In this document: positions 37,213-39,834 of the stretch, piece after piece
Layout: each line of letters opens with the position of its first letter
Position numbering within the stretch: the stretch's first letter is position 1
Origin: Melghirimyces profundicolus
GTDB taxonomy: Bacteria > Bacillota > Bacilli > Thermoactinomycetales > DSM-45169
Length of the DNA stretch: 64,000 nt
Direction of reading: 5' to 3'
NCBI RefSeq assembly: GCF_003054245.1
Contig: NZ_QBKR01000021.1
Span: 1-64,000, forward strand
Translations under genes and position numbers: made by a program
The notes under the pieces: model-generated
Seen by the model: the letters and a program-made list of their open reading frames with translations, nothing else
Databases searched by the model: none
Told to the model about the DNA's origin: nothing

Positions 37213-37348
37213 CCGGGATGCTTCATCTTCGGCACAGACCCGGACTTGGTGGACCGTACCATTTATCAGTTGAAATCGCTGGGAAAAAACGATACATATT
37301 ACTGATAAAAGAATGGAAATCATTGAAGAAAGTGGTATGGCAAAGATT

Positions 37349-37375
37349 CACCCCGCTCCCGGAGGGGGGGTTTTT
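37349..37375 (+). terminator. Probable terminator
   Basis: ACCCCGCTCC pairs imperfectly with GGAGGGGGGT, followed by TTTTT. It is about 140 bases after the 99-residue gene and upstream of the peroxiredoxin gene. Confidence 0.55.
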
Positions 37376-37423
37376 CTGTACATGCTGTTTTTTTCCATTC
37401 AACCGCATGGGGTGGAGTGAGGG

Positions 37424-38048
37424 ATGGAAACAGGGGAGGTGAATGAGGTGCCGGAAGAGACGACAGGGGAGTGCCGTCTGCCTTTTTGCGCCACCCGGGA
37501 TGATCCAGCCCCGGATTTTTCCGCTTCCGCGTATTTCAATGGAAAGGTGGAGAAGATCAATCTGAAGGATTACCGGGGGAGCTGGGTGATCCTCTTCTTC
37601 TATCCCAGCGACTTCACCTTTGTCTGACCGACGGAATGGGCGGCGGTCGCCGCCATCTATCCGCAGATCCGGCAAATGGGGGGCCGGCTGTGGGGAGTCA
37701 GCACCGACAGCGTTTACAGCCATAAAGTGTTTACCGAGATTTCCCCTTCGGTCCGGAACCTTCCGTATCCTCTGATCAGCGACCGAAGCCAGCAAATCAG
37801 CCGTTCTTACCGTGTCCTGGATCCGGAATCGGGTACGTCTTTTCGTGCCACGGTTGTTCATTGGCCCGGAGGGGTTCATCGTTTCCAAACAGGTGTACCC
37901 GTCCAATGTGGGACGTTCCGGTCCGGAAATTCTGCGATTGTTCCAGGCTTTGCTGTTTGGCGCAAGAACAGGTCTGGGGGTTCCCGCCAATTGGGTCCCG
38001 GGAATGCCCGGTCTGAAAAGGGACGTCCAGGATGCGGGAAAAATATGA
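37424..38048 (+). pseudogene. AhpC/TSA peroxiredoxin gene with in-frame TGA at the catalytic Cys and a downstream frameshift
   Basis: The frame reads [21 protein letters not shown], then [12 protein letters not shown] (37625-37627), PTEWAAVA. In peroxiredoxins this motif is TFVCPTE with the peroxidatic Cys, so TGA replaces exactly that codon. Known PrxU enzymes use selenocysteine there. Just after the TGA, GGCGGC-GGTC-GCCGCC forms a hairpin with a G-starting loop 17 bases away, as in bacterial SECIS elements. About 230 bases later (37850-37857, ACGGTTG) the frame must shift by +1 to continue FIGPEGFIVSKQVYPSNVG to stop 38046-38048. CPANW, the usual resolving Cys motif, reads VPANW. So it is either a selenoprotein gene with a frameshift (or sequencing error), or a decayed gene. 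A second possible start is GTG 37448. Confidence 0.7.
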
Positions 38049-38159
38049 ATCGAGCCGCCGCAAATCGATGCGGTGGCTTTTGGTTTCCGTGAGTTGGGAA
38101 AAAGAAGAACCGGCTCTTTAACCGGTCCGTTCGATCTGTATTCGTTTCCGGAAATGAAA

Positions 38160-38232
38160 AAGAGGCTGTCGACCGGTTGGACCGCCGTTTCGAGACCGAG
38201 GAGAGGAGAAGGAAAGGGTTCGACAGCCTCTT
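38160..38232. repeat. 13-bp inverted repeat enclosing 47 bases, IS-end-like
   Basis: AAGAGGCTGTCGA (38160-38172) and TCGACAGCCTCTT (38220-38232) are perfect inverted repeats. GAGGCTGTC-type ends are typical of IS1182/IS4-like insertion sequences, so this could be a tiny non-autonomous element. On the minus strand a T-run follows, so a terminator role is also possible. Confidence 0.5.
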
Positions 38233-38330
38233 GAAAGAAGGAGGTATATTATAGTGATATATTTTTGTATATATCTAAGTATATTATATCGGGTGATCAT
38301 ATGAAAAAGGAAGTGTCTGTTTTTTCCATC

Positions 38331-38355
38331 GCAGGTTTTGCAACCTGCCCTTTTT
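38331..38355 (+). terminator. Rho-independent terminator-like hairpin
   Basis: GCAGGTT (38331-38337) pairs with AACCTGC (38342-38348), then CCTTTTT. It lies 60 bases upstream of the CoA-binding protein gene, so it ends upstream transcription or acts in the leader. Confidence 0.6.
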
Positions 38356-38415
38356 CACTTCTTTGGGAATCCGTTTTCGGGGTATGGTATTGTAAGGGAA
38401 AAAGGAGGAATGATC

Positions 38416-39426: not shown

Positions 39427-39834
39427 TCATACGGGGACGGTGTCCGTGCGTTCCAAGCCGGCTTTCTCCCGTATTTCCATTCCGCTTGCCACCCGTCGGA
39501 AGAACAGAAGACCGGACCCTCCCAAGCCTGAAAAGAGAAGGGCCATCCCCCGGGCAGGGAGAAATCCCCCGAGGGTAATGAAGGCACCCCCGAGGATCAT
39601 GGTAACGAAAGCCATGATTTGATCCACGGCCATGTAAGTACTTCGGGCATGATCCGGTGCCAATTCACCCAACATCGCCTTATTCACGGGAATGAAGGTG
39701 GCTTCGCCGACGGTCAGTACTCCCATCGTGAACACCAATACCCAGGGTGTGAGGCCCAAGGTCAATCCGGCGTAACCCCAAGTGCAGAGGAAGATACCGA
39801 AGGTGTTTCGGTCAGGATGAACCAGGTGATCCAA
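39427..39834 (-). pseudogene. MFS transporter, C-terminal remnant
   Basis: The frame encodes about 135 residues with three to four hydrophobic helices (FGIFLCTWGYAGLTLGL, WVLVFTMGVLTVGEATFIPVNKAMLGELA, AFVTMILGGAFITLGG, ALLFSGLGGSGLLFF). This is the last third of a 12-helix MFS permease (YttB/MdtH-like; VNKAMLGELAPDHARSTYM is the typical loop). No N-terminal two thirds and no ribosome site are present, so the gene is dead. Confidence 0.75.

Follow-up and report, generated by a model that had tools for sequence, protein, structure and literature searches.

Genomic organization of the peroxiredoxin locus

The window analysed here, a stretch of 64,000 nucleotides from contig NZ_QBKR01000021.1 of Melghirimyces profundicolus, contains on its forward strand a peroxiredoxin gene with an in-frame TGA and, further on, a frame change of a single base (Table 1). 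The portion of the gene before the break matched the Pfam profile PF00578 with an E-value of 2.8e-30 (105 bits against a cut-off of 26). The motif TFV-TGA-PTE spans positions 37616–37636 and places the TGA exactly at the catalytic cysteine codon, the position held by the Cys of AhpC, as an earlier sequence-only reading of this DNA had proposed. The stop codon of the gene, TGA at 38046–38048, is reached in the +1 frame; zero-frame translation beyond the break would stop at 38090–38092. Because terminator-like hairpins stand on both sides, the gene appears to form a unit by itself; the pattern scan that located these hairpins returned 11 such sites in 2.3 kb compared with 3.3 in shuffles. An open frame of 255 amino acids lies antisense to the gene at 37223–37990 (−), on the strand called by a codon-usage scan, and shows no sign of being a gene.

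Table 1. Features of the selenocysteine (Sec) peroxiredoxin gene and its immediate flanks, in window coordinates
Feature	Position	Strand	Remarks
Terminator-like hairpin 5' of the gene	37355–37371	+	Pattern scan
Sec-peroxiredoxin gene, AhpC-TSA domain	37424–38048	+	One in-frame TGA, one single-base frame change
Start codon	ATG 37424, or GTG 37448 after AGGGGAGG	+	Chosen by eye
N-terminal Cys codon, LPFCATRDD motif	37487–37489	+	Only other Cys conserved across most of the family; putative role
Sec codon TGA, peroxidatic position (PSDFTFV-U-PTE)	37625–37627	+	TGA in 85/85 family loci, window included
SECIS-like hairpin GGCGGC-GGUC-GCCGCC, six pairs	37639–37654	+	Covariation (86 distinct sequences), codon-preserving fold test
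Single-base insertion site	37856–37862	+	Seven bases, six in relatives; no frame change in 84/84 relatives
C-terminal third, +1 frame (GPEGFIVSK...VPANWVPGMPGLKRD...GKI)	37863–38048	+	0/14 highly conserved family columns deviate
Intrinsic terminator-like hairpin just 3' of the gene	38052–38079	+	11 pairs, then T-rich tail (pattern scan)

Conservation of the in-frame TGA among related loci

Relatives were first sought in 121 genomes with the part of the gene before the break, the Sec position being entered as Cys. Besides the window, this search recovered four loci at 60–63% identity (in genomes G119, G060, G094 and G102), each with one TGA. A five-sequence alignment of the window and these loci then served as the query of a wider search of the genome_contigs collection; the alignment was itself made from TGA-bearing loci, and the query was begun after the Sec codon, which avoids selecting for TGA. 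The best 80 of 437 relatives, together with the four loci and the window, gave a set of 85 loci. Two of these (L012 and L069) encode the same protein, and 82 distinct proteins were counted after the Sec codon, window excluded. The family so defined (84 loci: the best 80 of 437 plus four) is found mostly in Bacillaceae and their relatives.

All 84 related loci carry TGA at the peroxidatic codon (85 of 85 with the window), and in every non-window locus the frame is clean, with exactly 139 codons from Sec to stop. Close relatives with Cys and a clean frame, which the sequence-only reading had named as the sign of simple gene decay, were absent from these 84 loci. Of 398 genomes sampled across the phylum, 28 matched at E ≤ 1e-40, the window genome included; 26 of these matches contain an internal TGA and the other two are AhpC-like Cys proteins at 41–42% identity. 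Of the 18 phylum-wide TGA loci fetched, 17 were confirmed to have the TGA at the peroxidatic codon and L176 was confirmed separately from its DNA; eight further phylum-wide matches lie outside the fetched set.

A tree of 109 rows, from which the PrxU rows L149–L151 were left out, comprised a clade of 91 rows that all bear TGA, 12 Cys rows and 6 other Sec rows. The window gene falls inside the 91-row clade with support of 100/98, its exact place within the clade not being settled by the tree, and its end branch is long (0.45 versus a median of 0.084). According to a warning from the tree program, long branches come together at the junction of this clade with the other Sec rows. A further clade of TGA-bearing peroxiredoxins without a resolving Cys (L179, L182–L186; GDFTFV-U-PTE, GRFLIDPDG) was observed in other families of the phylum.

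Structure and covariation of the SECIS-like hairpin

The earlier claim that a GC-rich hairpin stands at bacterial SECIS distance held. In GGCGGC-GGTC-GCCGCC, 17 nt separate the UGA from the GGTC loop, inside the 16–37 nt between UGA and apical loop given for the bSECIS model in PMC13188914, which also specifies an upper stem of 4–16 bp and a minimum free energy ≤ −7.5 kcal/mol. The 6-bp hairpin alone reached −11.7 kcal/mol and a 23-nt core −13.1 kcal/mol, both in the SECIS register, and the 23-nt core prefers this register in the window as it does in 77 of 78 relatives. In a 46-nt context it is the minimum-energy fold of 66 of 78 relatives and not of the window, where the same GC-rich arms pair in another register and the SECIS register retains a mean pair probability of 0.40. 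When the 42 nt after the window TGA were randomized with codons preserved, none of 300 sequences folded as stably; dinucleotide shuffles of the 46 nt (−18.9 kcal/mol) gave only moderate support, with z −1.75 and 14 of 200 shuffles as stable. The codon-preserving test was likewise moderate across the family, with a mean z of −1.32 versus −0.52 to +0.05 in four control stretches, and p ≤ 0.05 in 20% of 81 sequences versus 7–15% in those controls.

At the third positions of codons 6 and 7 after Sec, 67 of 81 distinct sequences have G/C and 14 have A/T, with no mixed combination; at the third positions of codons 5 and 8, A/T occurs in 57, G/C in 19 and G/T in 5. The covariation set was enlarged by 11 phylum-wide loci and, after identical 42-mers had been dropped, fell from 96 to 86 rows. 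In these 86 distinct sequences the loop-closing pair is GC in 63, AU in 17 and CG in 6, and is unpaired in none; pairing cells amounted to 97.7% versus 89.9% in shuffles, and cells changed on both sides numbered 44 versus a shuffled mean of 8.8, a level reached in 0 of 500 shuffles. Slid versions of the structure were worse by every covariation measure. The loops of the family read GGUC, AGUU or CGUG, always N-G-U-N' with N and N' paired and with a standard closing pair in 86 of 86, a configuration that the bSECIS model of PMC13188914 allows. Since kinship inflates covariation counts, weight was put on the three pair types and on the absence of mixed states. The hairpin is under RNA constraint and its synonymous bases covary, the folding energies being the less informative line of evidence. 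When the window genome was searched with a SECIS model that stays close to the sequence of this peroxiredoxin family, the present site scored E 7.5e-13 and the next 0.26, the SelD site not being listed.

Selenocysteine machinery of the window genome

The window genome (G000; 3.77 Mb, a draft of 67 contigs) is predicted to decode selenocysteine, having a tRNA-Sec(UCA), SelA, SelB and a Sec-type SelD, all above their cut-offs; the search for selA, selB, selC and selD that the sequence-only reading had called for thus found the complete set. The tRNA-Sec lies on contig C1 with a score of 68.4 bits (cut-off 47), and none of the other matches among the 19 listed passed that value; ARAGORN called it independently with the anticodon UCA. 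The tRNA-Sec cut-off alone is not strict, because 5 of 14 control genomes passed it. SelB scored 371 bits against a cut-off of 242, which was passed in 41 of 121 genomes, the window genome included, and in 2 of 14 controls. Corresponding scores were 601 bits against 268 for SelA (15 of 20 genomes, 1 of 14 controls) and 392 bits against 125 for SelD (15 of 20 genomes, 2 of 14 controls). All 15 SelD genes above the cut-off contain one in-frame TGA, in the window genome within the context GUGCK.

SelD and the peroxiredoxin gene are the only selenoproteins found in the window genome, in a search limited to the families named here. Formate dehydrogenase was considered as a further Sec client and rejected, its single match above the cut-off having no internal stop. 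Formate dehydrogenase alpha genes without an internal stop lie at C6:94995–97004 of the window genome and C27:43519–45528 of the same-genus genome G001, and versions with one in-frame TGA occur in G060 (C9) and G102 (C41).

Genomic context and distribution within the order

Within the order, only one of 42 genomes, the window genome itself, has the gene (E ≤ 1e-32). A search for the flanking DNA covered six genomes of the family, and five stretches were fetched. In G001, both flanks match and enclose 240 nt versus 1077 nt in the window genome (window 37319 to 38397); in G004, both flanks again match, with 441 nt between the equivalents of window 37342 and 38421. The peroxiredoxin gene is absent from both intervals, which are too short to hold it. 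The gene is dispensable in the order, because only one of the 42 genomes has it and the G001 interval is without it. Gain by transfer, or repeated loss, possibly lies behind this distribution. A phage or virus origin was also considered; 36 pattern-matching stretches in viral_contigs included none that encodes a relative.

Traces of other genes border the interval. A fragment of an MFS transporter at 39427–39834 (−), of 135 amino acids, covers profile positions 62–175 of 347 with 31.3 bits against a cut-off of 33.4, and is apparently what remains of a gene, lying 1.4 kb downstream of the peroxiredoxin gene. Upstream, 86 nt at 37234–37319 match positions 1010–1093 of L205, the terminal part of a frame that extends further in G001 (by eye), and seem to be the only remaining tail of that frame. 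Across 80 loci of the family no shared neighbourhood was found, the commonest neighbour cluster occurring in 12 of 80 within 2.5 kb. Genes resembling those of cytochrome bd oxidase (cydAB-like, named by eye) lie downstream in 10–11 of the 80 loci, for example L123 and L099.

Decoding of the TGA and origin of the frameshift

The window TGA is very probably read as selenocysteine, because TGA stands at this codon in 84 of 84 relatives, their frames are clean, the SECIS-like hairpin covaries and the Sec-decoding genes are present. The same observations bear on the rival view of a Cys peroxiredoxin gene in decay, in which the TGA arose by chance as a nonsense mutation. In favour of that view, a second lesion is present and the gene forms the most divergent row of the alignment before the break, but relatives have kept the TGA in every case, alongside hairpin covariation and an intact Sec machinery, and a random nonsense mutation at just this codon, already held improbable when the sequence was first read, is scarcely conceivable and was rejected.

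The +1 shift that the earlier reading had placed about 230 bases after the TGA was confirmed as a single-base insertion: the window reads GTTCATT, seven bases, at 37856–37862, where relatives have six. From TGA to stop the window gene measures 139 codons plus one base; an intact reading frame is present in 84 of 84 relatives and not in the window copy, and the same frameshift was seen in 0 of 84. Conserved columns deviate in 2 of 27 cases before the break and in 0 of 14 after it, against relatives' means of 0.48 and 0.22 deviating columns, respectively, and at least two deviations before the break occur in 10 of 82 relatives. Before the break the window has a mean identity of 0.600, the next lowest mean being 0.602; after the break it is below average, at 0.527 versus a mean of 0.580 (lowest other row 0.477). 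This divergence may just reflect that no near relative is known. The family length, exact but for one base, and the retained conserved residues point to a very young lesion or an error: the insertion is either a fault of the draft or a knock-out of very recent date.

Between decay and sequencing error, the two caveats already attached to the frameshift when it was first noticed, probability is split about evenly; the shift itself is confirmed in the sequence and absent from 84 of 84 relatives. On one account the Sec codon is real but the window copy is a genuine, very recent pseudogene, in which a biological insertion has cost the strain the enzyme; its probability lies just short of an even chance. 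The insertion site contains no homopolymer, long runs of one base being absent from 37856–37862, the gene remnants nearby suggest a scarred interval, and the gene is dispensable in the order. A crude frame scan of the 64 kb pointed the same way: it showed no other clear frameshift, and in the 23 same-strand switches picked out the stop of the first gene lies near the junction. The scan was rough, in that it called the antisense strand at the peroxiredoxin gene, and 11 further segments hold one in-frame stop each, which may or may not mark a gene boundary. Against a pseudogene speak the conserved residues kept on both sides of the break and the retention of SelA, SelB, SelD and tRNA-Sec. On the other account the Sec codon is equally real and the gene intact, the extra base having entered through faulty sequencing or assembly, to which we give almost the same weight, also just under even; the draft state of the assembly (67 contigs) and the exact family length but for one base, with conserved residues kept, favour it, whereas the position outside a homopolymer and the failure of the rough scan to show further breaks of the kind do not. 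Very improbable is a programmed +1 frameshift behind the Sec codon, that is, a double-recoded gene: slipping by +1 on the CCC codon next to the break would, as the sequence reads, bring the gene back to family length, but no frameshift exists in any of the 84 relatives, and the zero-frame VHW fits the V/I-I/V-D pattern of the family worse than the other frame. If real, the insertion would replace the C-terminal end and probably inactivate the enzyme; if a draft error, the gene would be intact. The window copy itself serves chiefly as a warning over a frameshift in a draft genome.

Cysteine residues and proposed catalytic cycle

Selenocysteine peroxiredoxins are known already, and the window gene joins a Bacilli-centred subfamily as a new member; sequence comparison assigns it to a predicted family of selenocysteine peroxiredoxins centred on the Bacilli. 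In all 84 relatives the last 45 residues are free of Cys, so the family as a whole lacks the C-terminal resolving Cys. Its absence from VPANW (37980–37994, in the shifted frame), correctly observed in the earlier reading, is accordingly a family trait, and decay was rejected as its cause since the absence is common to all members. The resolving Cys is likewise absent from the other Sec-peroxiredoxins read. Elsewhere behind Sec, a single Cys occurs in 12 of 84 relatives at scattered positions, most often 71. A Cys within 12 amino acids upstream of the APxF motif is present in 77 of 85 loci, window included, and is thus common, not universal; it is absent from several more distant relatives such as L172–L174.

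In the proposed cycle, SelB and Sec-tRNA-Sec would bind the hairpin and Sec would be inserted at the UGA. The selenol would then reduce peroxides, and, as the C-terminal resolving Cys is missing, the resulting selenenic acid may be resolved by an external low-molecular-weight thiol, by thioredoxin or by the N-terminal Cys of most members. A more specific proposal, which we regard as tentative and rather unlikely, is a Sec-obligate subfamily apart from PrxU, mainly in Bacilli, with no Cys form among the loci read and the C-terminal resolving Cys lost, in which the N-terminal Cys (PFCA) perhaps forms an intramolecular or intersubunit selenenylsulfide. Gene calling with TGA as a stop would end this gene within its active site. 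In many culturable Bacilli the family represents a predicted Sec peroxidase without resolving Cys, and recycling of such enzymes becomes testable there.

Comparison with known selenocysteine and cysteine peroxiredoxins

Sohling and colleagues, cited in both PMC13188914 and PMC8533274, reportedly described a selenocysteine peroxiredoxin (PrxU) of Eubacterium acidaminophilum in 2001. The list in PMC13188914 has an entry for Sec peroxiredoxin (TxxU) with reference to Sohling et al. 2001, placed before the block 'Predicted with high confidence'; a word search of the main text of that article returned no 'Bacillus', 'Bacilli' or 'Bacillota'. A 2006 survey (PMC1794560) counts 12 Sec-Prx and, for Bacillales, only 3 selenoproteins in 3 families. 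No paper on the present subfamily was found by title or opening of the abstract, in a partial coverage of the literature that is no proof of its being unpublished.

The sequence-only reading had likened the position of the TGA to that of selenocysteine in PrxU-type peroxiredoxins. That placement stood, with a refinement as to the family. Against the NCBIfam PrxU model NF040737, with a curated cut-off of 270, the window part, shortened by the frame change, scored 118.5 bits and the four full-length family members tested scored 160–179 bits, whereas separate genes in G048, G088 and G102 reached 365–369 bits. By this curated cut-off the family is best placed next to PrxU and outside it. PrxU (NF040737) and the family share the AhpC-type domain and Sec at the peroxidatic position (TxxU), and the PrxU genes L149–L151 are also TGA-bearing and without a C-terminal resolving Cys (EVTPAGW in PrxU). 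The two differ after Sec, where PrxU reads ATEVAAVAA and the family PTELAAVAA, and in the middle part.

As for its recoding signal, the window hairpin resembles the bacterial SECIS consensus of PMC13188914 in spacing, loop size, loop guanine and N1–N2 closing pair, and differs from it in the 46-nt fold of the window sequence, where a competing register has the greater stability. Typical 2-Cys AhpC proteins (PDB 5y63, 1we0) are similar to the family in the domain and the surroundings of the active site; L014, for example, scored 127.7 bits against 5y63, the Cys of VCPANW being deleted in L014. In contrast to these enzymes, the family has Sec in place of Cys and lacks the C-terminal resolving Cys.
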